The translations under genes and the position numbers were made by a program. A stretch of 64,000 nucleotides of DNA, from positions 1 through 64,000 of the forward strand of contig JAAELK010000152.1 of NCBI GenBank assembly GCA_024226935.1. The letters run 5' to 3'. Positions 42,827-61,785 of the stretch are shown piece by piece. The notes beneath the pieces are model-generated. The model was not told the DNA's origin, did not search any database, and was given only the letters and a program-made list of their open reading frames with translations. Origin of the DNA: Desulfobacteraceae bacterium (GTDB lineage Bacteria; Desulfobacterota; Desulfobacteria; Desulfobacterales; Desulfobacteraceae). Every line of letters starts with the position of its first letter. The first letter of the stretch is position 1.

Positions 42827-43376
42827 ACACCTGTATTTCCTCCCTTTAAATGAGTTATAATCTACTTCCATAAAATCATAACAACAACTCATAAATATGC
42901 AATAAGTATTCCCTGTTTATTCAAAAAAAAATAGTGCGCCTTTCAGCCAGCTCCATATTACATCTTACACAAAAACAAAGGATTAACTAAGAACAAACTG
43001 CCACCGAAAAACAATAATTACCTGAATTTTCAAACCGGTTTGGCAATTTTTTCCGGTAATAATTGCGGATATGTTTTATCAAACCCTTTTTTGACCTGTA
43101 AAACTTGATCTAAAAAAAATAATCCATTTTTATGCATTAAAAACTTGTGCAAAAAGACAGATGCCGCATAAAGAAAGGTCCTGGAAAAAGAAAACCCCGT
43201 CTGTCAGAATCGTATCAACTCTGGATTGAACCATACTTTTGCTTTTAAAATTCCTCAAATGGTACATAATTTGCTGTTACTTAAAATAAAAACATTGAAT
43301 TTGAAATGATACAGAACTTTTTACCAGGGAATAGGATCATAAATCAATTAAAATTTTGTATTAAAGAGAGGTCCTC
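42827..43376. other. intergenic region between divergent pseB and the YkgJ-like gene
   Basis: An AT-rich stretch of 550 nt without a credible gene. A perfect 12-bp palindrome CAAACCGGTTTG occurs near 43032-43045. Promoter-like hexamers for pseB (such as TTGCAT-N16-TATGAT on the minus strand) are weak. Confidence 0.35.
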
Positions 43377-44059: not shown

Positions 44060-46921
44060 ATGACCACAAAATTTATAGACTACTACGAGTCAAACCTGGA
44101 ACTTCTTAAAAAAAATCATCCTGCTGTATGGAAACGAATTACCAACGAACCACCAGAACCTCTAGGCACTATTTTCTCTACTCCCGACAATAAACCGAAT
44201 CTCACTGCCCCCAATTTCAAGGGAAACCTAATAACTTTCCACAATGAAAAAAACCCAGAAAAAGATTCAATCTATTTTTTAAATCAAATACCTCAAGATC
44301 ATAAAGGTTTTGTTGCAATCCTCGGAATAGGCCTTGGTTATGGCGTTATAGAGATATTAAAAAAAAGACCATTGCTTCAGTATCTGGCTATATTTGAACG
44401 TGAACCCCAAATTTTCATCCAAGCCCTTAGATATACAGACTTTTCACCATTACTTAAAGATTCCAGACTTATTTTATGCGTTGGTCAAAATATTAAAATC
44501 AACAAAGAAATGACTCTTGCATCCCGTACCCTTCAACTTGAAGATGCCAATATTTTTAACCATTCACCTTCTTTCAATTTTGATCCAACAGGATACAAAA
44601 AATTAAAAGAGGATCTCTATAACTACATTAACAGCCAGAATGTTGGTGGTGCAACCACCCGGGCCCTTGGCAAAGATTTTTTAAATAACAGATTTAAACA
44701 TGTCTCTACCATCAAACACCATCTTCTACTCGAACAAATACTAAACAAATTCACCAACAACCCGGCAATACTTGTGGCAGGTGGACCATCATTGGATAAA
44801 AATGTACATATTCTAAAACAGGCCCAGGAAAAAGCTGTCATTTTTGCAGTTGATACAGTTCTTCCTACCCTCATAAAACACGGAGTACATCCACATTTTC
44901 TCACATCCATTGATCCCAAAAATCTTACCTATGAAAAATTTGCCGACGTAATACCAAAGGTAAAAGACATTGCCCTGGTGTGCTCCTCATGGGTCAACTT
45001 AAGAACACCAAAAGTATTTCCCGCAAGTCAGATATTCTGGACTTTTACCGCCAAACCCATAGAAGCATGGATAAACTCTCTTATAGGTGGGAAAATGCTC
45101 ACAGGTGGCTCCAGCACCGTAGCACATCTAAACCTCATTGCAGCACACATGCTTGGCTGCGATCCAATTATCTTTATTGGACAAGATCTTGCGTATCCAA
45201 GCACTAATACCCATGCCAGAGAAACGGTTCTTCGTGGAACACCACCCACCGGTATTATCGATGGAAACAACATGGGACAGACCGTTAAAGGAATTGATGG
45301 TACCACCCTACGCACCGACCGTTCTTTTCTGAGCATGAAAACGCATTTCGAATCCATCATTACAAAATCTCCACAAACTTATATCAATGCAACCGAGGGT
45401 GGGGCACACATTGAAGGCACGCAAGTCCTTACATTAAAAGAAACCATAGACCTACACTGCATTCCCTATATTGATACTACCCGTAGAATCAAGGAGTATT
45501 CTTCAGACATCGGATCAATCAATACAAAAAAAATGATCCTAGAATTTAACAATACGTTAAACAAAGCCATGGAACTCCAAAAGATGGTTAAAAAATCCGA
45601 CAGAATAACCCATTCCATACTTAAAGACCTAACATCAAAGCCCATAAAAAAAAATATCCAATCGTTCTCAAATCTCTCCCAACAACAACAAAAGCAAATA
45701 GTCAAAATTGATAATTTCCATAAAAATATTGATAAGACTTTAGATATCTGGAAAATACTGGAAGAAATTACCATGGATGGATTAAAAGAAAGTGAACGGC
45801 AACGCCAAGAAATTACAACCCTTGAAAATAATCCCAAAAAATACAATCAATGGCTGATAATGAACCTTCAGAGATTGCTAAATATTAATAAAATAAGAAA
45901 GGAAAGTTTAACCCTTTTAGAAGATAATTTAAGCACGGTTATCGCTTTTAACCAAAAAGAACAAACATATCTAAGCCAAATAGAGAAAGGAAATAAAAAA
46001 GAACAAAACCGCCTCAAACTAGCAGAACTGTACATGGATTCTGACAATTATTATCTCGCTAAGCCTCTGGTAGAAGACCTCTTAAAAAAACTCCCGGAAT
46101 CAGAAAAACTTTATTTCTATCTTGGGTGCATCGCGGGGCAATTTAATGAACATGAAAAAGCGGAACAATATTTTCATAAAACACTGGAGATTGCCCCGGA
46201 TTTTGCCAAAAAAATTGATTTTTTCCAAAATACTCTTGGTGATGAGTTTATGAAGTTTGCCAATTATTTCAAGAACCTACCAGGACGTCGAGCCAGTTTA
46301 AAACACATGCTTTTCAAAGGGCTTCGATATTGTAGAAACCATGATAAGCTCAACCAAGAACTTAAAGCTATCCTTAAAGAAGAATTAAAAAATATTAAAA
46401 ATTATCTTGACTCAAAAAACCATAGTTGTGCTGCCCCACTAATCAAGGAATGGGACAAAACGATTGCAACACACAATTATTTGACTACCAATATTCCTCC
46501 AGAATATATGAGCCAAATTTTTATGAATAACGGCAAACTGCTTTTAAAAGAAAAAAAATATCCAGACGCCCTAACAAATTTTCAAAAAGCGATGGAGCAG
46601 TCTCCCCTCGACCATGATATTCATTTTATTACTATAGATACATATTTTATTGCAAAAGATTTTAACGGAGCTATCATGGCTATTAATAAAGCCGTCACAA
46701 TCGATAAAAAGTTTGCCTCTTATTGGGAAACCATAGGTGACGATCTCCAGGCGGCAGACCAAAATGAAGACGCGATTTTGGCCTATGAGCGTTGTTTTAT
46801 ACATATGCCAACTAATATCAATCTGCTTAAAAAAATGGGAAACTGCTATATTGCCACTGGGCAGATGGAGGCGGCAAAAGCTTCTTTTGAACAACTTAAA
46901 TTAAAAATGTCAGGAGATTAA
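44060..46921 (+). CDS. maf: Maf-type flagellin glycosyltransferase (DUF115) with TPR tail
   Basis: A motility accessory factor protein, the family that transfers CMP-activated pseudaminic or legionaminic acid to flagellin Ser/Thr in the cytoplasm before export. The DUF115 core (about 190-460) contains ILVAGGPSLDKN, VDTVLPTLIKHGVHPHFLTSIDP, GGSSTVAHLNLIAA and IFIGQDLAYPSTNTHA. The C-terminal 300 residues hold TPR-like helices. The length (953 aa) is well above most Maf proteins. The start has TTGGAGA upstream. The donor genes on both sides and the flagellin 10 kb away fit this role. Confidence 0.88.
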   Translation: MTTKFIDYYESNLELLKKNHPAVWKRITNEPPEPLGTIFSTPDNKPNLTAPNFKGNLITFHNEKNPEKDSIYFLNQIPQDHKGFVAILGIGLGYGVIEILKKRPLLQYLAIFEREPQIFIQALRYTDFSPLLKDSRLILCVGQNIKINKEMTLASRTLQLEDANIFNHSPSFNFDPTGYKKLKEDLYNYINSQNVGGATTRALGKDFLNNRFKHVSTIKHHLLLEQILNKFTNNPAILVAGGPSLDKNVHILKQAQEKAVIFAVDTVLPTLIKHGVHPHFLTSIDPKNLTYEKFADVIPKVKDIALVCSSWVNLRTPKVFPASQIFWTFTAKPIEAWINSLIGGKMLTGGSSTVAHLNLIAAHMLGCDPIIFIGQDLAYPSTNTHARETVLRGTPPTGIIDGNNMGQTVKGIDGTTLRTDRSFLSMKTHFESIITKSPQTYINATEGGAHIEGTQVLTLKETIDLHCIPYIDTTRRIKEYSSDIGSINTKKMILEFNNTLNKAMELQKMVKKSDRITHSILKDLTSKPIKKNIQSFSNLSQQQQKQIVKIDNFHKNIDKTLDIWKILEEITMDGLKESERQRQEITTLENNPKKYNQWLIMNLQRLLNINKIRKESLTLLEDNLSTVIAFNQKEQTYLSQIEKGNKKEQNRLKLAELYMDSDNYYLAKPLVEDLLKKLPESEKLYFYLGCIAGQFNEHEKAEQYFHKTLEIAPDFAKKIDFFQNTLGDEFMKFANYFKNLPGRRASLKHMLFKGLRYCRNHDKLNQELKAILKEELKNIKNYLDSKNHSCAAPLIKEWDKTIATHNYLTTNIPPEYMSQIFMNNGKLLLKEKKYPDALTNFQKAMEQSPLDHDIHFITIDTYFIAKDFNGAIMAINKAVTIDKKFASYWETIGDDLQAADQNEDAILAYERCFIHMPTNINLLKKMGNCYIATGQMEAAKASFEQLKLKMSGD

Positions 46922-47087: not shown

Positions 47088-47828
47088 TCAAGACAATAAC
47101 TTGATTTTTTTTCCTGGTTTCTGCACAACACTTTTATTAATTTCCATGAGTTCTGGATGTTCATCACATAGTTTTACAATTTCCCTCAACAAGAACACTT
47201 CACCATCATGGTATAGGTGATCAAAAATTCGGGAAACCAGCTCAAAATCTTCTGGAGTATCAACCGTCAACCTCAGTTCAGGCCTTTTTACTGATTCATC
47301 CTGAACTTTTAAAATTCCACATTTGAAAATCCCGGTTTGTGTGAAGTACCCACCCCACACTTCAGTATCCACTTCATCCTTAATTTTGCATGCCCTAACC
47401 ATTGCAGAATAGGAAAGTCCATAACTGAATGTTCCAAAAGGCAACCCTAAAATACTGGTAAAATCATTACCATTTGCAACATGATAATCCAGTAAATTAG
47501 CTATATAAACCGGATCAACAAAGGGATTATCTGCCGTACAGCTTATAATAGTCTGTCCTTTGAACTTCTCGGCTGCCATGGTAAGCCTTAAAAGAACATC
47601 ATCGGGATGTCCACGAAAGCAACTAATTCTTTCCTGAAAAGCTATCTCCACGAGAGGATCATCCTGTTCAGATGCTGATGTACAAAGCACTATCCCATCA
47701 ACATTTTTAACCATTTTAAGCCTCTCAATCAAATGAGACACCATCGGGCGACCCTTGAGCAACTTAATGGCCTTTTTTGACAATCTTGTAGATTTAAGCC
47801 TTGCTGTAATCAATATCAATACACTCAT
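47088..47828 (-). CDS. cytidylyltransferase-family protein (SpsF/NeuA-like)
   Basis: A 246-residue sugar nucleotidyltransferase. The N-terminal ITARLKSTRLSKKAIKLLKGRPM is the SpsF-type variant of the ARxxSTRLxxKxL motif, followed by ISCTADNPFVDPVYI (acidic metal site) and the late RLTVDTPEDFELV. In Bacillus spsE/spsF pairs encode a synthase and a cytidylyltransferase; here the same pairing is seen (4-nt overlap with a NeuB-like gene). It is the best local candidate for activating the product of that synthase, and possibly for LegF function. Confidence 0.75.
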   Translation of the reverse strand: MSVLILITARLKSTRLSKKAIKLLKGRPMVSHLIERLKMVKNVDGIVLCTSASEQDDPLVEIAFQERISCFRGHPDDVLLRLTMAAEKFKGQTIISCTADNPFVDPVYIANLLDYHVANGNDFTSILGLPFGTFSYGLSYSAMVRACKIKDEVDTEVWGGYFTQTGIFKCGILKVQDESVKRPELRLTVDTPEDFELVSRIFDHLYHDGEVFLLREIVKLCDEHPELMEINKSVVQKPGKKIKLLS

Positions 47829-48850
47829 TTAACATCTTCCTCTTTTATTAGACTATAATGATTTATATCATGCCTTATTTTCCGCCCAATCACTCGATAA
47901 GCCTGGTCAGGTGGTAATCCGAGTTCATCAGCCCGCATATAATGCAAATCACTTTCTTTAATTACAGTGTCTTTTTTGATATCACGGGAAACTACAATAC
48001 TTTTTTTTGAATTTTTCCTATAAATTAATTCCTGGCTCAAAAAAGGCTTGGGAACTGAAATGCCTTTTGCAATATCAAGCTCCCGAACCATTGTCACAAA
48101 TTTTTTAAATTCATCGGGATTTAAGGCAGCCTGATGATCAATACCTTTCAGACTTCGATCATGGGTGATATGTTTTTCCAGACAATCAACTTGCATACCG
48201 ACGGCAACAGCAGGCAACCAAAATCCAGCCTCACTGTCACCATCACTATGATCTTGATACCCGATCGGAAGTTCAAAAAGTTGTTTTATTTTTTTTAAAA
48301 AGTTTAGATTAATTGCCTCTGTTGGAGTAGGAAAAATCTGATATCCATACATAAGCCAAATTGACACTTTTTTAGAAACATTTCGGATCCACTCAATAGC
48401 ATTTTGAATCTCATCCAAAGTCGAAGCACCAACACTCAAATCAATTCTTTTACCGGTTTGAGCCACATGATTTATAAAAAGGGGATTAGATAAGTCTGCA
48501 GAATGAATTTTAAAGGCATCAACATCCATTGTCATCGCAAAGTCTATACTTTTAGTTTCATAGACACAAGCAATAATATCCATACCTGGATATTTATCCC
48601 GGGTATACTCAACCAAATTCTGCCACTGCATCTGTGAAAGTTCTATTTTACTTAAAAGCTTGTAATCCTTATGATGGGGAACAACCATTTCAGGCAGAAA
48701 CCAAATCTGAAACTGAATTGCATCAGCACCAGCTCTGCCCGCCCCATCAATAATTTTAAGAGCCAATTCAGGATCACCCTCGTGGGAACACGCCATTTCA
48801 GCGATTATATAAGTCATATTATCGGATATATTTTCAGCCTGTTTTTTCAT
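47825..48850 (-). CDS. NeuB-family synthase, divergent type (SpsE-like)
   Basis: A 341-residue NeuB-family protein. It keeps IIAEMACSHEGDPE, GADAIQFQIW, FKIHSADLSNPLF, IGYQDHSDGDS and EKHITHDRSLKGIDHQ, plus a SAF domain (from about 285). The loop that reads CTSAYP or CNTEYPTP in PseI/LegI is LMYGYQIFPTP, so the sugar substrate may differ. It is the first gene of a two-gene unit with the cytidylyltransferase. The gene is more AT-rich than the chromosomal background in the first part of the window. Confidence 0.8.
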   Translation of the reverse strand: MKKQAENISDNMTYIIAEMACSHEGDPELALKIIDGAGRAGADAIQFQIWFLPEMVVPHHKDYKLLSKIELSQMQWQNLVEYTRDKYPGMDIIACVYETKSIDFAMTMDVDAFKIHSADLSNPLFINHVAQTGKRIDLSVGASTLDEIQNAIEWIRNVSKKVSIWLMYGYQIFPTPTEAINLNFLKKIKQLFELPIGYQDHSDGDSEAGFWLPAVAVGMQVDCLEKHITHDRSLKGIDHQAALNPDEFKKFVTMVRELDIAKGISVPKPFLSQELIYRKNSKKSIVVSRDIKKDTVIKESDLHYMRADELGLPPDQAYRVIGRKIRHDINHYSLIKEEDVK

Positions 48851-49189: not shown

Positions 49190-50008
49190 ATGTATCAAAA
49201 AGTATTAATAACAGGACAAATGAGAAGTGGAACCACATTGTTATGTAATTTTTTAAATTCACAAAAAAATATAACCATGTATGCAGATATTTTTCACACT
49301 GTTGCCGGGAGAGTTCCTGATCCCAGGGGATGGAGCTTTTCAAACATAAATTATCTGGCGGATATTCCCCAAACCAATAAATATTATTTATTATTCAGTA
49401 TGAGCCATGGCATTGATGTATTAAAAACTGCAAACGAAGTTAAATATCAATTAGATATTGACCCAAAAAAATTTAATACTATGAAAGAGTTGTATTATCT
49501 ATTGCTCGACAGCATAGCCAAAAAAGATGACTTAGTTGTGGGTAATAAAGTTACATCCTGTGAGATTAATATTGAAAATATTTCAAAACAAACTGATATT
49601 AAAGTTCTTTATATCCACAGGGATGCACGGGATGTTATACTTTCAGCAGCCAAAAAATTCAAAAGACCTATAGATGAATACATCCAGGCATGGAACCATG
49701 CCATAAATATTGTCATTAAAATAAATAATCCTAATTTTCTGTGTATTAAATTTGAAGATCTTATATCCAAGGATGATAAAGTTAAAAAAAAGATTGAAAA
49801 TTTCCTTGGAGTACCCATCAATTTTGAAATAGAACGTCTTCAGGCCTATAACAACAAGTGGGTAGCCAATTCTTCCTTTGAAGATGTGAATTCCCTTTTT
49901 GATAAAACCGTTGCTTACCGCTGGAAAAACAACATAACATGGGATATTGAGAAAATTTATTCACTTTGTAATGATCAACTTGCTGCACTCGGCTATGATC
50001 CCATGTAG
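49190..50008 (+). CDS. sulfotransferase family protein
   Basis: A 272-residue sulfotransferase-like protein. The 5'-phosphosulfate loop is ITGQMRSGTTLLCNFLNSQ, and the 3'-phosphate segment is VLYIHRDARDVILSAAKKF. It is only weakly similar to the other sulfotransferase of the island. The gene is notably AT-rich (poly-A/T runs, ATA/TTA codons), a sign of recent acquisition. The start has AAGGT eight bases upstream. It stands alone on the plus strand and converges with the PtmE-like gene. The acceptor is unknown. Confidence 0.75.
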   Translation: MYQKVLITGQMRSGTTLLCNFLNSQKNITMYADIFHTVAGRVPDPRGWSFSNINYLADIPQTNKYYLLFSMSHGIDVLKTANEVKYQLDIDPKKFNTMKELYYLLLDSIAKKDDLVVGNKVTSCEINIENISKQTDIKVLYIHRDARDVILSAAKKFKRPIDEYIQAWNHAINIVIKINNPNFLCIKFEDLISKDDKVKKKIENFLGVPINFEIERLQAYNNKWVANSSFEDVNSLFDKTVAYRWKNNITWDIEKIYSLCNDQLAALGYDPM

Positions 50009-50043: not shown

Positions 50044-51099
50044 TTACACGCTTCCCATAATTTTCAAAGCCTTACGATATTCTTCCCATTGACCGATATC
50101 AATCCAGGAATTTTCACTGATGGGATATACACCAACCATACCACCATTTTCTTTAACTTTTTCCATCAAATGAGTCATATGAAACATTCCAGAATCCGGG
50201 ATTAAATCCAAAACCTTTGGATTTAATATATAAAGCCCAGTATTCACCAAAAAATTGTATTCGGGTTTTTCTTTAATATCACCAAGGCTTCCATTGTTGT
50301 CCAACTCACACACTCCATAGGGAATATGAAATTGCTTAGTTGCTGCAACCATAGTAATATCGTACTTTTCTTTTAGATGAAACTCATAGATATCGGCATA
50401 ATCCGCTTCAACGATGATATCACAATTGGACACAAAAAAAGGAATTTCCAGCTTATCCTTGACCAATTTAAGACTGCCTGCTGTTCCTCGTGGTTCCGTT
50501 TCTTCGATAAAACCTATTTTATAATCTGGATTTTTCTCTTCAAAATACGCTTTTATTATTCCACACATATAATTTACGGTCAGATAATATTCTTTAATTC
50601 CATAATCTCTAAATCTATCTATAATATGGTCAACAACTGTCTTTTCTCCGACAGGAATAAGGGGTTTGGGTAAAACGGTCGTAAAGGGCTTAAGACGAGT
50701 TCCCTTACCACCCGCCATGATAACTACCGGGGCTGATATTTTTTTATTTTCTAACTTTTTTTCTTTACCAAACACATTTTCCAATGTTAGATAATCAACA
50801 ATACTTTTGTTTTCATCCAAAACAGGAATAAGATTAATTTTATATTTAGTAAATATTCGTTTAATTTTTTCCAAATCAAATTTTTGTTTATATACGAAAG
50901 AAGGTTCACTGTTATATGCGTGCCCAATGGTACCCGACAAATCCTGATTTTTTAAAATATAACGCCTGATATCGCCATCAGTCAAAGTACCAATCAGCTT
51001 TTTATCATCGGAAACCAAAAGTACTTTTTCGGCTGTTTTATCCAATAACTCCATGGCGTCTCTTATGGTTGTCTTTGGGCCTACGATAATATCTTTCAT
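50044..51099 (-). CDS. ptmE: CBS-domain sugar nucleotidyltransferase (PtmE-like)
   Basis: Two CBS domains (about 1-115) precede a nucleotidyltransferase domain with VIMAGGKGTRLKPFTTVLPK and the later SNCDIIVEADY metal site. In Campylobacter, PtmE makes GDP-GlcNAc from glucosamine-1-phosphate for legionaminic acid synthesis; that activity is inferred here. The CBS pair may sense adenosyl ligands. The length is 351 aa. It is the last gene of the six-gene legionaminic unit and overlaps LegG by 4 nt. Confidence 0.85.
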   Translation of the reverse strand: MKDIIVGPKTTIRDAMELLDKTAEKVLLVSDDKKLIGTLTDGDIRRYILKNQDLSGTIGHAYNSEPSFVYKQKFDLEKIKRIFTKYKINLIPVLDENKSIVDYLTLENVFGKEKKLENKKISAPVVIMAGGKGTRLKPFTTVLPKPLIPVGEKTVVDHIIDRFRDYGIKEYYLTVNYMCGIIKAYFEEKNPDYKIGFIEETEPRGTAGSLKLVKDKLEIPFFVSNCDIIVEADYADIYEFHLKEKYDITMVAATKQFHIPYGVCELDNNGSLGDIKEKPEYNFLVNTGLYILNPKVLDLIPDSGMFHMTHLMEKVKENGGMVGVYPISENSWIDIGQWEEYRKALKIMGSV

Positions 51100-52313
51100 A
51101 ATATTTTATCCTTATTGCGCTTTAATAAGCGCTTTTTTAATTTAGAATTATCCTCTGGTACAAAATCAAAAAATTTTTTTTTCAAGATACCAGTTAAACC
51201 GACATGTTGTAAAATTTTCTTAATTCTTATAGAAGTATCAAATTTTTCAAAAGGAATAATCATATCTCTTATTTTAGCTTGAAAGGTATTTTCATAAATA
51301 GATTTTAAGGCTTGCTGTATTGAATACTTCGAAGGTTCACAGTCAATAACACTATCCATCCTGATTCTGCCCTTCTGTCTGTCACCAATATTAATGGTCG
51401 GCACCCTCAAGGCTGGCGCTTCCAAAACACCACTTGAACTATTCCCAATGACTGCCTCACACAATTTCATTGCAGAAAGATACCTTAGATATCCAAGAGA
51501 TTGCACAAATAGACATTGATCTGGATGAAGCTTTTGGTAATGAGCTATTATTTGATTTAAAACCTGCCCTCCAGTATCGGCATTCGTACTGGTAAAAATA
51601 ATTTTATAATCAGAACACAAATCCAGCACTGATAACAACTCCTTCAACTGTTCTTGGGCACTGTTATTTTCCAAAGTTACCGGATGAAAAGTCACTAAAA
51701 AAAACGGTTTATCAAGTTTAAAGCCTATTGATTCTTCCAGCTCACCCCGCGTCATCAGACATAAACTCTTAATATTTTCAATCCCCAGGGCACCGACATT
51801 ATAAACATTCTCAGGGGATTCTCCCATTTGAATAATTCTATTTTGATATTCTTCACAACTAGGAAAGTGGAGATGGGCCATCTTGGTGATACAATGACGA
51901 AAGGCTTCATCAATCACCCCCTGGGTTGTTTCCCCACCGTGAATATGTGCAACGGGGACACGGCATATCTGGGCTGCCGTTGCACAACAAAAAGCCTCAA
52001 ATCTGTCACCAAGAATAACCACGATATCAGGGCTGTTATCAGCAAAAAATTTTCCATATTCAGTAACCGCTGTTCCCATGGACCGGCAGATCCCCTTTGA
52101 AGAATCATCACTTAAATCTATATCCACACAGGTATGCTCTTCAAACCCATCCTTATGGATCTCTTCGATGGTCATACCCTGGGCCAAAACCAAGTGGCTT
52201 CCGCTGACAAGCAATTGCAACTGCAGTTCAAAACTTTCATCAATTTCCATGATCAAATTTTTGAGTAGGCCATATTCAGCCCTGGTGGAGGTATATACGC
52301 AAATTTTACGCAT
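51096..52313 (-). CDS. legG: UDP/GDP-sugar 2-epimerase, hydrolysing (LegG/NeuC family)
   Basis: A NeuC-type hydrolysing 2-epimerase that releases the 2,4-diacetamido-2,4,6-trideoxymannose used by LegI. The N-terminal KICVYTSTRAEYGLL and LLVSGSHL, the middle GDRFEAFCCATAAQICRVPVAHIHGGE and the late GNSSSGVLEAPALRVPTINIGDRQKGR are typical. The length (405 aa) is normal. It overlaps LegI by 8 nt upstream and PtmE by 4 nt downstream. By context it belongs to the legionaminic pathway more than to NeuNAc. Confidence 0.88.
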   Translation of the reverse strand: MRKICVYTSTRAEYGLLKNLIMEIDESFELQLQLLVSGSHLVLAQGMTIEEIHKDGFEEHTCVDIDLSDDSSKGICRSMGTAVTEYGKFFADNSPDIVVILGDRFEAFCCATAAQICRVPVAHIHGGETTQGVIDEAFRHCITKMAHLHFPSCEEYQNRIIQMGESPENVYNVGALGIENIKSLCLMTRGELEESIGFKLDKPFFLVTFHPVTLENNSAQEQLKELLSVLDLCSDYKIIFTSTNADTGGQVLNQIIAHYQKLHPDQCLFVQSLGYLRYLSAMKLCEAVIGNSSSGVLEAPALRVPTINIGDRQKGRIRMDSVIDCEPSKYSIQQALKSIYENTFQAKIRDMIIPFEKFDTSIRIKKILQHVGLTGILKKKFFDFVPEDNSKLKKRLLKRNKDKIL

Positions 52314-53316
52314 CGATCATATCATCTTCTTTATATTCTTTCCCAGCCTTCCTGCCGATTATTTCATCCCATTTCATCGGGCTTATCCCATTACCCGGTC
52401 TTTTTACCGTCAGGTTATCTTCAGTAAATTTTTCTCCGACAGCAATATCGCAAGAAGCCACTATACTTTTCCTGACAAGGGGAATATTTTTTTTCTCTGA
52501 AGGGCTTGGTTGTTTAACATCATCACCAAGGGCCATCTCAATATTTCTTATGGCCTTTACCATCTGCATGAGTTCATCGGGCAAAAGAGAGGCTTTATGA
52601 TCGGGACCAGCAAGATTTTTATCTAGGGTGAAATGTTTTTCAATCATAACAGCTCCCATGGCAACCGCGGCAATGGGGATCTCAATTCCTTTTGTATGAT
52701 CGGAATAACCGATCCTGACATCGGGAAAAAAAGATTTAATGGTTTGCATGGCTTTGAGATTAACATCTTCCATGGGGGTCGGGTACTCGGTGTTGCAATG
52801 GAGAATAGTGATCTTACGAGAAGGGATTCCAGCAATCATAAACACGGAAAGAGCAGCCCTTATCTCCTGATAATCCGCCATTCCAGTTGATAATATAACC
52901 TCCTGGCCAAGGGATGCTATCTTTCTTAAATAGGGCAGATTAGTGATCTCCCCCGAGGGGATTTTCCATCGATTCATCCCGATTTTATCCAGCATATCAA
53001 TGGTTGTAAGATCAAAAGGAGAGGATAAAAATTCAATATTATTCAACTGGCAGTGTTTTTTTAATTCCAAATGATCGGCATGGGAGAGTTCAAACTTTTT
53101 TAACATCTCAAATTGTGTTCCATCCTCCCCGGACATTTTGATCTGGTAATCCGCCATGGGCGCATTTTTTGTAACCAGAGTCTGTGCCCTGAAGGTCTGA
53201 AATTTTATGGCATCGGCGCAGGCTCTCGCTGCAGCTTCCACCATTTGCTTTGCCATATCAAGGGACCCGTTATGATTTACCCCGGCTTCGGCTATTATAA
53301 AAACCTTACATATCAT
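52306..53316 (-). CDS. legI: N,N'-diacetyllegionaminate synthase LegI (NeuB family)
   Basis: Condenses 2,4-diacetamido-2,4,6-trideoxymannose with phosphoenolpyruvate to legionaminic acid. It has the classical NeuB landmarks: FIIAEAGVNHNGSLD, ADAIKFQTF, KIPSGEITNLPYL, LHCNTEYPTPMEDVNL, GYSDHTKG, EKHFTLDKNLAGPDHKAS and a SAF domain (about 280-336). It is the most canonical of the four NeuB proteins in the window. It overlaps its neighbours by 8 and 4 nt in the legB-legC-neuD-legI-legG-ptmE order. Confidence 0.92.
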   Translation of the reverse strand: MICKVFIIAEAGVNHNGSLDMAKQMVEAAARACADAIKFQTFRAQTLVTKNAPMADYQIKMSGEDGTQFEMLKKFELSHADHLELKKHCQLNNIEFLSSPFDLTTIDMLDKIGMNRWKIPSGEITNLPYLRKIASLGQEVILSTGMADYQEIRAALSVFMIAGIPSRKITILHCNTEYPTPMEDVNLKAMQTIKSFFPDVRIGYSDHTKGIEIPIAAVAMGAVMIEKHFTLDKNLAGPDHKASLLPDELMQMVKAIRNIEMALGDDVKQPSPSEKKNIPLVRKSIVASCDIAVGEKFTEDNLTVKRPGNGISPMKWDEIIGRKAGKEYKEDDMIDA

Positions 53317-53939
53317 AATTTTTCCTCCTTGATTTTTTGCCCGTCTTTTTCACTGATAATAAGACGACCCGCCTTAAAAAAGTAGTTCCCAGGAAGCTTA
53401 ACCCCCTGGACTATGGTTGCACTGGACCCCACAAAACTGCCCGAACCAATAACAACCCCACCGTTTAAAACAGCGGCAGTTGCAATATGAGTATGGTCGC
53501 CAATCTTTGTATCATGTTCGATGAGACATTTGGTATTCAAAATACAATTACTCCCGATACTGGCGCAGGCATTCACAATTGCCTGGTGCATAACAATGGT
53601 ACCCTCTCCGAGGTTAGCATGTTTTGAAACATGGGCCAAGGAAGAAATGATAGAAGGTAAGACAAATCCTATCTTTTTCAGACGATTAAAAATTTTTTGC
53701 CGGAGACCGGCTGAACCGATCTGACCGATAGTTATAAGGGCATAATCATATCTTTTTTTTAAAGCTTCAAGGTCATGATCACACCCCAGAACTGGGTAAC
53801 CCATAACAGCCTTACTAGTATTTTTTCCTACCCCTTCAACTATGCCAGCAATTTCAAAAAGATTTTGATTTTCAATAACATCGATGCAGGATCGACAATG
53901 GCCACCTCCACCAATCAAAATTATCTGTTTTTTAAGCAT
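53313..53939 (-). CDS. NeuD/PglD-family sugar O- or N-acetyltransferase (LegH role)
   Basis: A 208-residue acetyltransferase with an N-terminal Rossmann-like part (IILIGGGGHCRSCIDVI) and a left-handed beta-helix of hexapeptide repeats (GEGTIVMHQAIVNACASIGS, IGDHTHIATAAVLNGGVVIG). The catalytic His is likely in IEHDTKIG. In this operon position it should acetylate the 4-amino group made by LegC, as LegH/PglD do. It overlaps legC by 8 nt and legI by 4 nt. Confidence 0.87.
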   Translation of the reverse strand: MLKKQIILIGGGGHCRSCIDVIENQNLFEIAGIVEGVGKNTSKAVMGYPVLGCDHDLEALKKRYDYALITIGQIGSAGLRQKIFNRLKKIGFVLPSIISSLAHVSKHANLGEGTIVMHQAIVNACASIGSNCILNTKCLIEHDTKIGDHTHIATAAVLNGGVVIGSGSFVGSSATIVQGVKLPGNYFFKAGRLIISEKDGQKIKEEKL

Positions 53940-55080
53940 TTATCCTCACACTGCTTGGCAGATTTACAAGCCTTTTTGCAAGCCATCTTGCATTTTTCAA
54001 ATTATCTGTGGCAAAATTTTTATACATGGGAAGATCGGACATTAATTGCCAGGCAGGTCTTGTCATTATTCCAGATTCGTTTGTTATTTTTAAAAGATCA
54101 TCCCTTTGTTTTTGATCCGGGGTGATAAGAGTATTGAGCCAATAGTTACTTGTGCATCCCTGGGGCTGGGTAAAAAACTGTCCCCATTCCCGGGTCTTAA
54201 AAAAAGTTTCGTAAGAATAAGCAAGTTTTCTTTTATCTCCCAAGATACCATCCAATTGCCCAAGCTGGGCACAGGCAAGGGCGGCATTCAGATTGGGCAG
54301 CCTGTAGTTATACCCTATTTCATCATGGGAAAATTCCCATTTATGATTTAATTTAGCTGTGGTGGTCAAGTGTCTGGCCCTCTGGGCAAGATCTTTATCA
54401 TCTGTAATGATGGCTCCTCCCCCCCCGCAGGTAATGGTCTTGTTGCCGTTAAAACTAAGCACACCCAATCGGCCAAAGGTAGCGCAATGTTTTGATAAAA
54501 TCTTTGAACCAAGGGCCTCGGCGGCATCTTCCACAACACCGATATTCCAATGGTTTGCCAATTGCATTATCTGCTCCATCTTACAGGGATGCCCAAAGGT
54601 GTGCATTGGAACAATTGCCGCAATTTTCCGGCCGGTATTTTTGTTAAAGGTCTCCCTGTTTTTTTTAATCGCCGTTTCATCCAGAAATTTTTCAAGGGCA
54701 TCGGGGCACAAACCTAGGGTTTCCCTATTCACATCGATAAATACAGGAACAGCATTATTGTACGAAATGGCATTGGCCGTTGCCACAAAGGTCAAGGCTT
54801 GAGTTATCACTTCATCGCCTTTTTGGACACCGGCTAATTTTAAGGCAACCTCAAGGGCTGCTGTCCCATTCACCGTGGCCACGCAATATTTTGCACCAAG
54901 GTATCGTGCAAGCTGCTGTTCAAACCTTCCAACATATTCACCAACACTTGAGACAAAGGTGGAATCGATGGCATCCAACACATATTGCCTGTCAATTTCT
55001 TTGAAACGCGGTTCATGGAGGGCTATTGCAGCTTTAGTTTCATACCAATCCCTTATAAATTTTATAAGATCGCTATACAT
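53932..55080 (-). CDS. legC: PLP-dependent aminotransferase LegC
   Basis: A DegT/DnrJ/EryC1 aminotransferase that adds the 4-amino group to the keto-sugar made by LegB. The PLP-binding Lys is in LSFNGNKTITCGGGG, with VPMHTFGHPCKMEQI and VVEDAAEALGSK before it and GYNYRLPNLNAALACAQL after it. The N-terminal FVSSVGEYVGRFE segment is that of the LegC branch. The length is 382 aa. It is the only sugar aminotransferase in the window, so it may also have to serve the pseudaminic branch. It overlaps legB by 8 nt. Confidence 0.9.
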   Translation of the reverse strand: MYSDLIKFIRDWYETKAAIALHEPRFKEIDRQYVLDAIDSTFVSSVGEYVGRFEQQLARYLGAKYCVATVNGTAALEVALKLAGVQKGDEVITQALTFVATANAISYNNAVPVFIDVNRETLGLCPDALEKFLDETAIKKNRETFNKNTGRKIAAIVPMHTFGHPCKMEQIMQLANHWNIGVVEDAAEALGSKILSKHCATFGRLGVLSFNGNKTITCGGGGAIITDDKDLAQRARHLTTTAKLNHKWEFSHDEIGYNYRLPNLNAALACAQLGQLDGILGDKRKLAYSYETFFKTREWGQFFTQPQGCTSNYWLNTLITPDQKQRDDLLKITNESGIMTRPAWQLMSDLPMYKNFATDNLKNARWLAKRLVNLPSSVRINA

Positions 55081-56065
55081 TGTAAATATCTGTTTTATAA
55101 CGTGAAAGATTTTCAGGATCCATGAGCCATTCTATGGTTTTAATTAATCCTTGTTCCAGAGAATAATCCGGAGTGAAACCTGTCAATTGTTTTATTTTGC
55201 TGTTATCGCAACAAAGCCTTAACACCTCGGAATCCTTAGGGCGAACTCTTTTTTTGTCCGTGATAAATTCAACCTTTGAATTCATTATTTTTTTAATCAA
55301 ATTCAGTGTATCGGCCACGCAAGTTTCAATTCCAGAACCTATATTTACCACCTCTCCTGTGGCTTTGTCCGATTGGGCCAATGCCAGAAACCCCTTGCAG
55401 GTATCTTTCACATAATTAAAATCCCTGGTGGGTGAAACATCTCCCAACTGGATCTGTTTTTTACCCGCTGCTATTTGCCCTATTATAGTGGGAATAACCG
55501 CCCTGGCACTTTGCCTGGGCCCATAGGTATTAAAGGGTCTTGCAATGGTCACGGGCAAACCAAAAGATCGATAAAAACTCAAAGCCATATGATCGGCCCC
55601 GATTTTACTGGCCGAATAGGGCGATTGGGGCTGCAAAGGATGGTTCTCATCAATGGGAACATATTGTGCTGAACCATAGACTTCCGAAGTTGAGGTGTGG
55701 ATAAGTTTTTCACACCCGTTTTCCTTTGCCGCCTGGCAGATATTCAGGGTTCCCTTGACATTGGTATCCACATAAGAGTCCGGGGCAATATAGGAATAGG
55801 GAATGGCAATCAAGGCTGCAAGGTGAAAAATCACATCCACCTCCTTTGTAATTTCCTTACAAAAATGGGGATCACGAATATCTCCTGATACAACTTCGAT
55901 GTCATCCTGGCAATCAAGACCTTCAAGCCAACCCCAATAGTTAAAGGAATTATACTGGCTCAACGCCTTTACCCTGGCGCCTGCTTTAACCAGCATCTCA
56001 ACCAGATGAGACCCTATAAACCCGTCGGCTCCCGTGACTAAAACTTTTTTGTTTTTTAATTTCAA
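55073..56065 (-). CDS. legB: NAD-dependent 4,6-dehydratase LegB
   Basis: An extended short-chain dehydrogenase/reductase dehydrating GDP- or UDP-GlcNAc at the start of legionaminic acid synthesis. It has VTGADGFIGSHLVEML, FNYWGWLEGL, HTSTSEVYGSA, SPYSASKIGADHMA (YxxxK) and RPFNTYGPRQSARAVIPTII. I place the start at TTG 56065 with TAAGGA upstream, giving 330 aa; the reading frame continues 24 codons further but lacks a ribosome site. It is the first gene of the six-gene unit, with a possible promoter at 56148-56176. Confidence 0.87.
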   Translation of the reverse strand: MKLKNKKVLVTGADGFIGSHLVEMLVKAGARVKALSQYNSFNYWGWLEGLDCQDDIEVVSGDIRDPHFCKEITKEVDVIFHLAALIAIPYSYIAPDSYVDTNVKGTLNICQAAKENGCEKLIHTSTSEVYGSAQYVPIDENHPLQPQSPYSASKIGADHMALSFYRSFGLPVTIARPFNTYGPRQSARAVIPTIIGQIAAGKKQIQLGDVSPTRDFNYVKDTCKGFLALAQSDKATGEVVNIGSGIETCVADTLNLIKKIMNSKVEFITDKKRVRPKDSEVLRLCCDNSKIKQLTGFTPDYSLEQGLIKTIEWLMDPENLSRYKTDIYNV

Positions 56066-56147
56066 TTGTTTTTTCCTTACCGATATTGTGAACAAACCCT
56101 TTTTTTCTGAATATTTACAGGAAGCTTCCGTTGACAAAAAAAATTAT

Positions 56148-56392: not shown

Positions 56393-58840
56393 TTACTGGA
56401 GCAGACTCAAAACATTCTGAGAAGTTGCATTGGCCTGGGACAGTGCAAATGTACCAGCCTGACTCAAGATCTGCATTTTTGTAAAGTTAGATGATTCTGC
56501 AGCAAAATCCACATCACGAATGGCTGATTCGGCGGCAGTTACGTTTATCTGGGTTGTGGAAATATTGGCTATGGTGGAGACCAACTGATTCTGGACAGAA
56601 CCAAGATCGGATCTTACCTTATCCAAAGATTTCAATGCGGCATCGGCCACGGCAATACCAATCTGGGCCCCAGCCTGGCTAGTCACATCCACATCGGAAA
56701 GACGATAACCCACGGACTCACTGGTGTCAGAAGTGACAGTATCATCAGCGGCTATAGTATTAGCATGGAGAGATGTACCTGCCCTCAAGATAGATCCTGC
56801 ATTGAGGACCATATCATTCGCAAGGAAAACACCGCTCCCAGTTGTAATATCATACTCAAGCGTCGTGCCGGCCTCGTAAAAAACTCCATTTTCATCGAGA
56901 ATTTGATTTGTCAAAACCGTTCCGGCAGTAATAACACTTCCGCTGTCAAGGATAGTACCTGAACCACCGGCAAGCAGCATCTTATTATCATCTGCAACAA
57001 TTTCATCATCTGCCAATACGAGGGTTGATCCCAGAGTGGAACCATTGGCAATCTGGGAACCGGAGGACAACAAACTTCCTGTCGTAAAAGTCATGGTCGC
57101 AGTAACAGTTCCATGCCCACTTGTGATTTCAGAAGCCATCACCGATCCTGTTAACAGCACGGTACCGCAAAGAAGCGATGAACCGCAACCCAATGACATA
57201 TCACCTGTAAGAGTGGTTTCTCCGATTGTAACATAATCGGATTCAATCAAAGAACCTGCAGTCAATGTACTTCCAGAACCAATCGTTGAACCGCAAGTCA
57301 GCACAGCACCATACATGAAACCTCCACTCAACCCACCGACTTTAACATCAGCTCCTGCAGAAACATAGGTATTTCCGTCACCGCTAAGATGGACGGAACC
57401 TGCAGCTGTACCGGAAAGATAGCTCGTAACATCACCCTGGAAAACCGAACCAGATGAAATATTGGTACCGCAGACAAGCGCACTGCCGGCAGCCAATGTC
57501 TCATCACTTGTTGAAGCAGTTGCACCCGCAGCCAATGTGAAAGAACCCTGAAGTGTTACACCGCAACCAATGGTGGAACCACATTCAATGGTAGAACCGG
57601 TTGCAGCAATACTGGTGCCGCCTGAAGTTTCGACAGTACCGACAATTGTTATGGATCCTTCAACCTCTGTTCCGGAAGCCAAATATGAACCGGAAGAAAA
57701 ACTTGATCCGGCTGTAAGTGTAAATGCAGCACCACTTACGCCAGAACCGGTTTCTATCAAACCATCCGCCACAGATACGGCAATACCAGCCTGGGCATTG
57801 GCATCTGTAATAGTAATCTGGCTGGTTCCTTCCTGGCGGACTTCAATCGTACCAAGGGTAGACATATCCTCTGTCCCACCCAATACCGCCTGGGTAGCAT
57901 CGCCGGCGGTTACTTCAATGGCCCTGGCGTCGGCGCTGATCAGAGTGAGAATACCCTCCGTATCCACAGAAGCTGTAACACCATGTTGATTGGTTTTATT
58001 ATTTATTGCGTTTACAAGACCTTTTCCGTCGTCATTTATTACGACCTCCACTTCACCTATAACAACTCCGTTGATGGCAAAATCGCTGTCCGTTGTGCCT
58101 GCAACGATATTACTATCGGTACTGGTTGAAACGGAAGCTGTGGCACTTATGCCAAGGACATCACTCAATTGATTAATAATATCTGCAATGGCTCCAACAC
58201 CATGTTCTGCATCATTATCGAAGGCCAGTTCAGTAGCTTTAAGTGAAAAGGTTTCATCCATGAGATTACTATAAATATTTAGTTCTGTTACCCCGGCTCC
58301 TGAAAAGGTCAAATTGGAAGTTGTGATATGACCCATATCTGTGGCTTTCGTGGAAGAGATAGAAACATCAATTGTTTCCCCTGCATAGGCACCGATCTGG
58401 AATTTCTTATCGGTAAAATTACCGGAAAGAAGTTTCTGGTTGTTAAATGCCGTGGTTTTTGCAATGGTATCAAGCTCGTCACGAAGTTTTGAAATATCGG
58501 ACTGGATTGCGTTACGGGATTCTGTAGTCTGTCCATCCTGGGCGGATTGGATAGCTTTTTGTTTAATCGTGTTAACAATATTAATGGACTCTTCAAGAGC
58601 TGCATCAGCCGTCTGTACAATGGCAATACCATCATTACCATTCCGGATAGCCTGTCCAAGACCAAGGGCCTGGGAGCGCAAAGAGTCGGCAATTGCCATG
58701 CCTGAAGCATCATCGGCAGCCTTGTTGATTCTCAGACCACTGGACAGTCTACCAAGGGATTCTGAAAGACTATTATCGGTCTTAATCAAGTTTTTATGGG
58801 CGTTCAATGCTGCGATGTTGGTGTTAATTCTTAGTGCCAT
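56393..58840 (-). CDS. fliC: flagellin with large solenoid-like, cysteine-containing insert
   Basis: Filament protein of 815 residues, far above the usual 280-500. The D0/D1 N-terminus (residues 1-140, LSSGLRINKAADDASGMAIA) and C-terminus (725-815, ending ATSQNVLSLLQ) are canonical. Residues about 241-327 form a flagellin-IN-like domain. Residues about 365-700 are a Ser/Thr/Gly-rich repeat of the type GSxLxSGSxIxxGS, probably a beta-solenoid, with six Cys (420, 426, 457, 516, 552, 558), uncommon in flagellins. The Ser/Thr-rich surface is a likely target for Maf glycosylation (inference). AAGGAGG lies seven bases before the ATG. A sigma-28-like promoter and a long leader precede it. Confidence 0.95.
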   Translation of the reverse strand: MALRINTNIAALNAHKNLIKTDNSLSESLGRLSSGLRINKAADDASGMAIADSLRSQALGLGQAIRNGNDGIAIVQTADAALEESINIVNTIKQKAIQSAQDGQTTESRNAIQSDISKLRDELDTIAKTTAFNNQKLLSGNFTDKKFQIGAYAGETIDVSISSTKATDMGHITTSNLTFSGAGVTELNIYSNLMDETFSLKATELAFDNDAEHGVGAIADIINQLSDVLGISATASVSTSTDSNIVAGTTDSDFAINGVVIGEVEVVINDDGKGLVNAINNKTNQHGVTASVDTEGILTLISADARAIEVTAGDATQAVLGGTEDMSTLGTIEVRQEGTSQITITDANAQAGIAVSVADGLIETGSGVSGAAFTLTAGSSFSSGSYLASGTEVEGSITIVGTVETSGGTSIAATGSTIECGSTIGCGVTLQGSFTLAAGATASTSDETLAAGSALVCGTNISSGSVFQGDVTSYLSGTAAGSVHLSGDGNTYVSAGADVKVGGLSGGFMYGAVLTCGSTIGSGSTLTAGSLIESDYVTIGETTLTGDMSLGCGSSLLCGTVLLTGSVMASEITSGHGTVTATMTFTTGSLLSSGSQIANGSTLGSTLVLADDEIVADDNKMLLAGGSGTILDSGSVITAGTVLTNQILDENGVFYEAGTTLEYDITTGSGVFLANDMVLNAGSILRAGTSLHANTIAADDTVTSDTSESVGYRLSDVDVTSQAGAQIGIAVADAALKSLDKVRSDLGSVQNQLVSTIANISTTQINVTAAESAIRDVDFAAESSNFTKMQILSQAGTFALSQANATSQNVLSLLQ
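56741..57748 (-). repeat. degenerate hexapeptide-like repeats in the flagellin insert
   Basis: Codes for residues about 365-700. The period is about 6-7 residues, with recurrent G-S/T-x-hydrophobic-x-S/C-G steps (SSGSYLASGTEVEGS, CGSTIGSGSTLTAGSLIES, SSGSQIANGSTLGSTL). Repeats are degenerate at DNA level, so not a simple tandem array. Confidence 0.7.
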
Positions 58841-59206: not shown

Positions 59207-61207
59207 ATGGCAACAGGATCAATTACATCTTTGGGAATAGGATCGGGCCTTGAGCTTCAAAGCATCCTCGATCAACTGAAAGAAGTTGACCAGGCCCAAA
59301 TCACTGCCAAAGAAACTAAAATAACTGAACTTGAAACCCAGGTTGACGCCTATAATACAGTCAATGCAAAGCTTTTTTCCATTAAATCCGATGCCCTTAA
59401 TTTATCCCTTACATCAAATTATCTAAGCAATTCCGTTTCCATCACCGATGAAGATATCATTTCCGCCACCGTGGGCGACGGCTATGACGAATCTTCCTAT
59501 TCCATCGATATAACAAAAAAAGCTTCAAGAAACTCCTGGGAAACAACAGCAGTGGAAAATCAAGATGATATCATGTTTGCCGAAGCCGTAAGCGGAATTG
59601 CCGACGCCACTACAACAGCCGTCATCAGCTCTGGTACGACCCTTACCATGTATTACGGCACCTATGCCGGGATCAGTACCGACAACAGCATTTCAGCCGG
59701 CACAACGGATGCCGCTTTTACCATCAACGAAACTGTGATAGGAGAAGTAACCGTCGATGATGATTCTGATGCCAGCAGACAGGTCCTTGTGGATGCTATT
59801 AATGACAAAACCGATGAGCACGGAGTGACGGCTTCCGTGGATGAGGACGGCATTCTTACCCTGGTGTCTGCCGATCACAGCGAGATTACAGTGACCGTGG
59901 GCGGCGGTACCGAAACGGTTCTTGGCGGAGCAGACCCCATGTCAAACACCAGCCAGCAGCAAATTGATGTCACTTTGACCTCGGGCATGACCCTTTCTGA
60001 AATTGAGGATGAGATCAATGATTCATCCAATAATAAAGATGGCGATGGGACCCAGCTTGTAACGGCTTCCTTTGTCCTGGGAGATGATGATACCTATTAT
60101 ATGAGATTAGCAGCAACATCCGGTGGAAACAGCGCTGATTCGGAGATAAATATAGATCTAACGGGGCTTGACTGGCTTGCAGTGGATACAACCTTGGGCA
60201 TCACCCAGGATGAAACCACGATGTATCTGAGCGTTCCTCCTGGAACTACCTATGAAGAAACAGTAACTTTGATAAACGATGCCGATGACAACCCCGGGGT
60301 AACGGCAGCAATGATTAATAATGGAGATTCAACCACCCCCTACCAGCTCACATTAATAGCCGATGACACAGGAGAAGATGCAAGAATAACTCTGGACAAT
60401 TTTGGTGCCTTAACAGAGGTTAACGGTGGTATTGACCCGGATACCGGTACTGCTGAGTCGCTTAACGCCGCATTTACCGTGGATGGTATTTCCTACTCAA
60501 GGCAATCAAACACATCTCTCACCGATGTCATTACAGGTGTCACCCTTAACCTCAAAAGCGAAGGCGAATCCAGCCTTAACATCGAGGTAAGCAGTGATAC
60601 AATAAAAGAAGATATCATGTCCATGGTGGAAGGCTTTAACGACCTTATTTCCTACCTTGATACCGGCAGTGATACCGACACAGATTCCGATGCCGATAGC
60701 GATTCCGATGACACCGATAACCCCTTTGAAGGATCAACCAGTGCCAATAGAATTGATTCCCAGCTCAAGACTCTTTTGACAACTATTCTCGACTTAAATA
60801 CCAGTTACACAAGCCTTACAGACCTTGGTCTGGAAATCAGCAGCACCGGTACAATCAGTATTAATGAAGACACCCTTGATAGCGCCATTGCCGCAGATTA
60901 TGATGCAGTACAAAGCTTATTTTTGGGGGATTCCGATGAAGAGATTACAGGACTTGCAGACATAATTAATGATGGCCTGACAAATATGGTAAGTTCAACG
61001 GGAATCGCCTCAACGGAAATTGATCAGGCCGAAGCAGAAATCACAAATCTTGACGAGGATATTGAAATTGAGACAGAACGGCTGGAAAAAAAGTATGAAA
61101 ACATGCGAAAGTCCTTTGCAAACCTTGACACCTACATAAGCCAACTAAATGCGGAAGCTTCCGCCCTGACTTCGATGATTGATGCATTCAATAGCGCAAA
61201 TGAATAA
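59207..61207 (+). CDS. fliD: flagellar filament cap protein FliD
   Basis: The cap that guides flagellin assembly at the filament tip. N-terminal ITSLGIGSGLELQSILDQLKE and the C-terminal coiled coil (about 602-666) are typical. Residues about 158-246 repeat the flagellin-IN-like domain of the neighbouring flagellin almost exactly in pattern (EHGVTASVDEDGILTLVSAD against QHGVTASVDTEGILTLISAD). A short Asp/Ser/Thr-rich run (about 486-506, DTDTDSDADSDSDDTD) could bind calcium. The length (666 aa) is greater than E. coli FliD (468 aa). GGAG lies upstream of the start, and fliS follows after 95 nt. Confidence 0.93.
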   Translation: MATGSITSLGIGSGLELQSILDQLKEVDQAQITAKETKITELETQVDAYNTVNAKLFSIKSDALNLSLTSNYLSNSVSITDEDIISATVGDGYDESSYSIDITKKASRNSWETTAVENQDDIMFAEAVSGIADATTTAVISSGTTLTMYYGTYAGISTDNSISAGTTDAAFTINETVIGEVTVDDDSDASRQVLVDAINDKTDEHGVTASVDEDGILTLVSADHSEITVTVGGGTETVLGGADPMSNTSQQQIDVTLTSGMTLSEIEDEINDSSNNKDGDGTQLVTASFVLGDDDTYYMRLAATSGGNSADSEINIDLTGLDWLAVDTTLGITQDETTMYLSVPPGTTYEETVTLINDADDNPGVTAAMINNGDSTTPYQLTLIADDTGEDARITLDNFGALTEVNGGIDPDTGTAESLNAAFTVDGISYSRQSNTSLTDVITGVTLNLKSEGESSLNIEVSSDTIKEDIMSMVEGFNDLISYLDTGSDTDTDSDADSDSDDTDNPFEGSTSANRIDSQLKTLLTTILDLNTSYTSLTDLGLEISSTGTISINEDTLDSAIAADYDAVQSLFLGDSDEEITGLADIINDGLTNMVSSTGIASTEIDQAEAEITNLDEDIEIETERLEKKYENMRKSFANLDTYISQLNAEASALTSMIDAFNSANE

Positions 61208-61302: not shown

Positions 61303-61785
61303 ATGGCAGCATACCAGCAAGTAAATCAATATTTAAATCATCATTATGAAAGCATGGACCCTGAACAATTAATACTTTTGCTTTACAATGGGGCTTTAAA
61401 TCGTCTAAGACTTACCAGAGAAGGTATTAAAGAAAAGGATGTTAAAAAAAAGGGGGAAAACCTCTCAAAAGCCATCGCAATCATTTCAGAACTTAATGCT
61501 TCTGTTGATCCAGAGATGAACGATGAATCAACACAATTTTTAAGGGGGCTCTATATGGCTATTCTTACAGAACTGCCCAAAATAGCCTTAAATAATGATT
61601 TAAAAACCCTTAACCAGGCTGAAACATATATATCAAAGTTAAAAGATATCTGGGAAAAGGATGTGATGACAAAGAAAAAAGCATCTATCCCAAACATTGT
61701 AAAGGAGCCTGCAGGCAAGCAAGCTCTTCCATCGGCCTTTAACGAAAATCGGGCAAAGGTCAGTTTCCGCTCAATTTCCGTTTAA
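61303..61785 (+). CDS. fliS: flagellin export chaperone FliS
   Basis: A helical chaperone that binds the flagellin C-terminus and keeps it unfolded before export. The N-terminal YQQVNQYLNHHYESMDPEQLILLLYNGALNRL is the FliS signature. At 160 aa it has an extra C-terminal tail of about 30 residues (after WEKDVMTKKKASIPN). TAGGAG lies eight bases upstream of the ATG. Confidence 0.94.
   Translation: MAAYQQVNQYLNHHYESMDPEQLILLLYNGALNRLRLTREGIKEKDVKKKGENLSKAIAIISELNASVDPEMNDESTQFLRGLYMAILTELPKIALNNDLKTLNQAETYISKLKDIWEKDVMTKKKASIPNIVKEPAGKQALPSAFNENRAKVSFRSISV

Follow-up and report, generated by a model that had tools for sequence, protein, structure and literature searches.

What kind of domain fills the variable part of an 815-residue flagellin from a Desulfobacteraceae bacterium, and what are six cysteines doing in it, given that flagellins, to our knowledge, usually do without cysteine? 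The flagellin gene (56393-58840, minus strand) lies in a contiguous stretch of 64,000 nucleotides, referred to here as the window, and was recognized from its open reading frame. The protein begins with Flagellin_N, the N-terminal half of the filament core (residues 5-143; 58412-58828, minus strand; E 1.2e-44, 152.1 bits against a cut-off of 26.6), followed by a domain match to the Flagellin_IN motif (residues 253-304; 57929-58084, minus strand), and ends with Flagellin_C (residues 730-814; 56399-56653, minus strand; E 2.8e-28, 98.5 bits against a cut-off of 23). Both terminal domains score above their cut-offs, which places the protein among the flagellins (FliC), and a search of domain models for an enzyme domain or a peptidase in it gave no match. 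Its flagellar neighbors are FliD, the filament cap (59207-61207, plus strand; 666 residues with no cysteine, assigned by domain match), and FliS (61303-61785), with a further Flagellin_N match, FlgL-like, just past the edge of the window. FliD and the flagellin have an IN-motif stretch in common (residues 157-246 and 240-327, respectively), at 58% identity between the proteins (92 columns) and 67% between the DNA sequences (224 positions). Among six FliD-flagellin pairs from relatives, the pairs of L026 and L027 also share the IN-motif stretch, in the pair of L024 the shared part belongs to the hexapeptide insert (47% over 76 columns), and the other three show nothing at 1e-5. Because the FliD of the window gives higher bit scores with the flagellins of L024, L026, and L027 than with its own flagellin, these similarities do not amount to a demonstration of recent exchange.

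Between the Flagellin_IN motif and Flagellin_C lies the insert (residues 365-700; 56741-57748, minus strand, with 57748 corresponding to residue 365 and 56741 to residue 700), which is delimited by repeats and profile matches and is rich in Gly (17%), Ser (15%), and Thr (14%). A first-pass annotation had described the protein as an 815-residue flagellin with short Ser/Thr/Gly-rich repeats of the hexapeptide type, a description that the open reading frame and the periodicity bear out: the usual hexad of such inserts is [LIV]-x-x-G-[ST]-x, and the hydrophobic residues of the window insert have a lag-6 autocorrelation of 0.34, a value reached by none of 10,000 shuffles (maximum 0.18). On its own, the window insert scores 22.8 bits against Pfam Hexapep (E 7.2e-5), below the curated cut-off of 27 bits, and none of four shuffled copies matched the hexapeptide or left-handed β-helix (LbH) models. 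In an alignment of 22 inserts, taken from 39 insert references with the longer inserts left out, 22/22 match Hexapep (best 6.5e-18) and 20/22 match LbH_EIF2B at E 0.1. A 2011-residue relative, L109, matches both models above their curated cut-offs (Hexapep 2e-46, LbH_EIF2B 1.2e-29); L036 and L042 likewise exceed the Hexapep cut-off, and L107 falls below it. When the 22-insert profile was compared with the PDB, it found LbH enzymes, with a best E of 1.4e-5, and the best 60 of the 102 matches include GlmU, γ-carbonic anhydrase, LpxD, and QdtC; all of those 60 but 6e3f_A are proteins that we take, by name, to be LbH proteins. The sequence evidence indicates that the insert is likely a hexapeptide LbH.

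Structure prediction agrees with this periodicity, with short strands roughly every 6 residues in the AlphaFold models computed from the 22-row insert alignment and from a 17-row full-length alignment. The mean pLDDT of the two models is 55 and 59, and most of the insert is modeled with low confidence. The exception is residues 610-689 (56774-57013, minus strand), a stretch with no cysteine for which the insert-only model gives a pLDDT above 80, rising above 90 for about residues 630-689. Over the cysteine-bearing residues 420-558, the full-length model stays under a pLDDT of 50 and the insert model ranges from about 33 to 55, so that a solenoid is neither confirmed nor excluded there. The β-solenoid proposed in the first-pass annotation is thus upheld by sequence, where it can be named more precisely as a hexapeptide LbH, and is modeled confidently only at about residues 610-689.

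Foldseek returned no match at E 0.001, and the best VIA-align rows, near Z 8, are a mix of LbH, pentapeptide-repeat, and right-handed β-helix proteins, with the top row at Z 8.9 and an rmsd of 11.8 over 117 residues. Because neither comparison separates the types of solenoid, the handedness is read from the sequence. This lack of separation, together with the low model confidence and the below-threshold Hexapep score of the window insert, would fit a different β-solenoid, whether a right-handed helix or a pentapeptide-like or bactofilin-like fold. We nevertheless judge such a fold improbable: it has against it that LbH proteins make up nearly all of the best 60 of the 102 matches in the PDB and that long relatives match LbH models strongly.

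Inserts of this kind are common among related bacteria. Matches to the insert were found in 19/39 relatives, own genome included, with one of the matches (G029/L020) not judged to be a flagellin, and in 43/86 genomes of the family, again with the own genome included and counting insert matches, not all of which are confirmed flagellins. At E 1e-15 the insert profile detected 13/395 genomes drawn over the phylum, the own genome among them. Named records with the insert include Desulfobacter latus, Desulfobotulus alkaliphilus, Desulfamplus magnetovallimortis, and Desulfospira joergensenii. Because the insert recurs across the relatives, the family, and the phylum sample, the solenoid flagellin is ordinary for its group. 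The 59 LbH flagellins with both end signatures range in length from 690 to 2011 residues, and some genomes encode two solenoid flagellins in tandem. In the open-licence literature, judged by titles and the openings of abstracts, we found no paper on an LbH in flagellin, an absence that is weak evidence, and the sole paper found there with both terms concerns PseH.

Several members of this collection have features of their own. The 2011-residue flagellin (L109:4020-10055) consists mostly of hexapeptide repeats. The LbH flagellin of G015 (L040:47-3235), with its N-terminal end cut, carries within its variable part the sequence HEIGHGLGF, which we take to be a zinc-peptidase-like motif; it matched no Pfam peptidase model at 1e-3 and is possibly a flagellinolysin of another type. 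Adjoining a solenoid flagellin, a 703-residue open reading frame (L120:5446-7557) with at least 10 hexads, no flagellin signature, and no cysteine is perhaps a FliD that carries hexapeptide repeats as a domain. In G068 (L121:1-3976), a hexapeptide flagellin is broken into two open reading frames and has three cysteines outside the insert. A conserved 463-residue open reading frame occurs near solenoid flagellins in L024:2413-3804, L026:13405-14796, L027:2913-4304, L031:8409-9800, and L035:1504-2895; from its resemblance we presume that it may be a cobalamin-binding radical-SAM protein.

The neighborhood of the flagellin suggests that its surface may be modified. A legionaminic-acid-type nonulosonate gene set (50044-56137, minus strand; NCBIfam) adjoins the gene and comprises LegB (55073-56137), LegC (53932-55080), a NeuD-type acetyltransferase (53313-53939), NeuB (52306-53316), and NeuC (51096-52313), all above their NCBIfam cut-offs, as well as a nucleotidyltransferase (50044-51099) for which no model exceeds its cut-off, all six on the minus strand. 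Farther away, a Maf-type motility-associated glycosyltransferase with C-terminal TPRs (44060-46921, plus strand) scores above the cut-offs of the MptE-like and Maf_flag10_N models and far below that of PseD, making it the candidate enzyme for flagellin glycosylation. The flagellin thus has both the Maf-type transferase and the nonulosonate genes of a Maf/nonulosonate-glycosylated flagellin nearby, and glycosylation of the Ser/Thr-rich rod is plausible from this gene neighborhood. By inspection, several relatives have large Maf-like and LegB/LegC/NeuB-like open reading frames beside their solenoid flagellins. Two more pairs of NeuB-family and cytidylyltransferase genes (40060-42892 and 47088-48850) and a sulfotransferase-like gene (49190-50008) are also present in the window, suggesting that nonulosonic acids of more than one kind may be made.

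The cysteines at residues 420, 426, 457, 516, 552, and 558 listed in the first-pass annotation are exact in the translation, and there is no other cysteine in the protein. Cys420 (57581-57583) is encoded by TGT, and Cys426 (57563-57565), Cys457 (57470-57472), Cys516 (57293-57295), Cys552 (57185-57187), and Cys558 (57167-57169) by TGC, all on the minus strand. All six directly precede a glycine in the translation, an arrangement with a chance of 1.2e-5 if the cysteines are independent (60 such sites in the 380 residues from 331 to 710). No CxxC or CxxCH motif was found in the flagellin sequence. Elsewhere in this genome, FliD, the small second flagellin, and the open reading frames that resemble FlgL and FlgK are free of cysteine, so the genome has not abandoned cysteine avoidance in its exported filament proteins at large.

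The positions themselves are not conserved: when the alignment was checked for conservation, none of the 21 aligned relatives had a cysteine at any of the six columns. Serine is the most frequent residue at columns 420, 426, and 457 (15, 12, and 14 of the 21 relatives), and at the corresponding place in their hexads relatives have mostly Ser or Ala, but also Thr, Gly, and polar residues. For a wider survey, we assembled 89 LbH flagellins, defined as open reading frames with at least 10 hexads and an N- or C-terminal flagellin signature, with contained copies removed and near-identical ones kept. Seven of these rows hold a cysteine, with residue 6 of L094 and residue 7 of L042 lying upstream of the likely start and excluded from the insert count, which leaves 82 flagellins without cysteine, one with cysteine solely upstream of the likely start, and six with cysteine in the insert. 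L046 and the 1322-residue open reading frame of L028/L081 also had a cysteine upstream of the likely start and were trimmed before this count. Eleven further LbH flagellins, possibly redundant, have none (0/11). Six open reading frames with no signature were left out of the 89: L080 and L084, which have no cysteine; L120 5446-7557; L020, with 10 cysteines and a start like that of a secreted protein; and the two pieces in L121, one with a cysteine at residue 199 and one with cysteines at residues 491 and 532, never before glycine.

Where cysteines do occur in these inserts, their placing is narrow. The window protein has six, the two paralogues of G036 have six and three, the G082 protein has five, spaced 41 residues apart in tandem repeats, and L042 and L129 have two and one. 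Of these 23 cysteines, 20 directly precede a glycine, the exceptions being the two in L042 and the one in L129, and 16/23 are at i+2 of a hexad flanked on each side by hydrophobic residues; for comparison, glycine follows 18% of the serines and 23% of the alanines. In an LbH, the side chains at i and i+4 face the interior and position i+2 forms an outer corner, and exposure of this corner fits the inserts because relatives also have Glu, Asn, Lys, and Asp at i+2. Taking the cysteines as independent, the probability of this corner rule is 1e-12 against Ser, 1.5e-10 against Ala, and 2e-15 against all residues, values that are overstated because a single protein supplies five of the 20 cysteines in its tandem repeats of 41 residues. 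An earlier hexad count had applied a laxer rule to the window (6/26) than to its relatives (0/1135, 49 open reading frames). With one lax rule for all, cysteine is at the corner in 6/26 hexads of the window protein, 9/140 of a second clade described below, and 0/2071 of 85 others; under a strict rule that requires [ST] after the glycine, the counts are 5/23, 8/132, and 0/1975. This narrow placing says that, as far as the hexad pattern predicts orientation, cysteine is accepted almost solely where its side chain is expected to face outward.

A tree of 72 sequences, built from the first 330 residues, groups the window protein with eight cysteine-free flagellins (support 0.999 for the nine, with inner nodes at 0.905 and 0.946) and places the proteins of G036 and G082 together in another clade (support 0.96 and 0.997). 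This second clade has three proteins from two genomes of different families and follows the same rule of cysteine before glycine. Its cysteine columns mostly differ between proteins, usually standing against Ser, although column 711 is common to two proteins and the G036 paralogues have cysteines in adjacent columns 609 and 610, perhaps one site shifted by alignment. A count by genome had given three independent origins of cysteine, which the union of G036 and G082 in the tree rejects, giving two, plus the scattered cysteines in L042 and L129.

The first-pass annotation had offered a disulfide, metal-binding, or redox role for the cysteines, which these comparisons do not support: no relative has cysteine at those columns, CxxC and CxxCH are absent, and sites turn over in the second clade. 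By the refuting condition set in the first-pass annotation, cysteines that no relative conserves, a function tied to specific sites fails, although the class of position, before glycine, does recur in the second clade. At a disulfide, metal, or redox site both the residues and the distances between them should persist, and here they largely do not. On the aligned sequences, the six cysteines are peculiar to the window protein and are best described as lineage-specific exchanges at exposed corners. An intramolecular arrangement, with disulfides or a metal or redox center within the spike, would draw on the presence of six cysteines in one insert and of two C-x5-C pairs (420/426 and 552/558). 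We regard it as highly improbable, because in addition to the missing motifs and conservation the spacing is unfavorable: in an LbH of regular geometry, positions separated by 6 residues fall on different corners, roughly 17 Å from each other, and residues 516 and 552, 36 residues or two coils apart, are roughly 9.6 Å from each other, both too far for a disulfide. These distances come from general LbH geometry, since AlphaFold confidence over residues 420-558 is unusable, and the six hexads between 516 and 552 include an irregular one (TIGETT).

The abundance of the cysteines raises a different possibility, that exposed corner thiols are favored in this lineage for disulfide cross-links between spikes or filaments, or for binding metal sulfides or minerals, with the number and outward placing of the thiols mattering and the exact site not. 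Under passive tolerance, six cysteines in 26 hexads would have a probability of 1e-4 at 3% cysteine per site, 0.0015 at 5%, and 0.04 at 10%, so the count is high for passive drift. The concentration of cysteine at one place in the hexad, far from how Ser and Ala are distributed, the hexad counts in the window protein and second clade against none in the others, and the persistence of the cysteine-before-glycine rule while sites turn over would all suit such selection. Against it, the nearest relatives conserve no site, the other filament proteins of this genome have no cysteine, and the turnover in the second clade fits neutral drift equally well; we regard favored thiols as a tentative and rather unlikely explanation. 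The bolder proposal that the filament displays thousands of outward thiols on LbH spikes, selected in two separate flagellin clades with freedom for the exact sites to shift, and serving reversible covalent bundling or a grip on the surfaces of metal sulfides or minerals in anoxic sediment, is speculative, and we think it unlikely. Even with the cysteines not conserved, their positional rule makes thiol reactivity directly testable.

We therefore favor, as the probable explanation, a rigid and probably glycosylated LbH spike whose cysteines are exchanges specific to the lineage and do not make up a conserved site for disulfides, metal, or redox chemistry. The variable outer domain of the flagellin would fold as one or more hexapeptide-repeat LbH rods, three-sided and rigid, at the filament surface, where they could thicken or stiffen the filament. 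The rod would expose Ser and Thr, to which the Maf-type transferase encoded nearby probably attaches nonulosonic acid. The six cysteines would occupy position i+2 of [LIV]-x-x-G-[ST]-x, a corner presumed to be exposed, as Ser/Ala-to-Cys exchanges either tolerated or locally favored. An LbH has 18 residues and rises 4.8 Å per coil, and at this geometry the 336 residues stacked as a single rod would be about 9 nm long. One long rod would separate two ends that must rejoin the core, so that a single rod and two side-by-side rods are both possible. The LbH outer domain thereby raises a structural question, of a solenoid with distant ends inserted between halves that must meet, and offers a natural scaffold for dense surface groups at regular spacing. 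If the fold is right, many Desulfobacterota have flagella covered by long β-helix rods of a type known from enzymes, in flagellins of up to 2011 residues.

Hexapeptide LbH proteins (PF00132, PF25084), such as GlmU, LpxA/LpxD, DapD/DapH, and γ-carbonic anhydrase, have the same hexad [LIV]-x-x-G-[ST]-x, and the inserts match their profiles. In contrast to these enzymes, the repeats here are an insertion that forms the outer domain of a flagellin, the window protein has no enzyme domain, and the repeat region is far longer in some relatives. Fields et al. (2024, Nat Commun 15:9500) reportedly sorted flagellin outer domains into structural clusters, and these clusters may already include an LbH flagellin fold. 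In flagellinolysins, an extra domain is likewise placed in the variable region of flagellin, and one flagellinolysin is said to be without cysteine; that extra domain is a zinc peptidase, whereas the window flagellin matches no peptidase model (PMC7643111). For the DE/DX inserts of Oceanospirillales, the main text of the source uses the words beta and cysteine 0 times (PMC6248924). The same source offers a parallel in overall layout with giant or large flagellins, which likewise have enlarged outer domains between conserved flagellin ends and are linked there to thick filaments, with Desulfotalea psychrophila named in a figure legend (PMC6248924).
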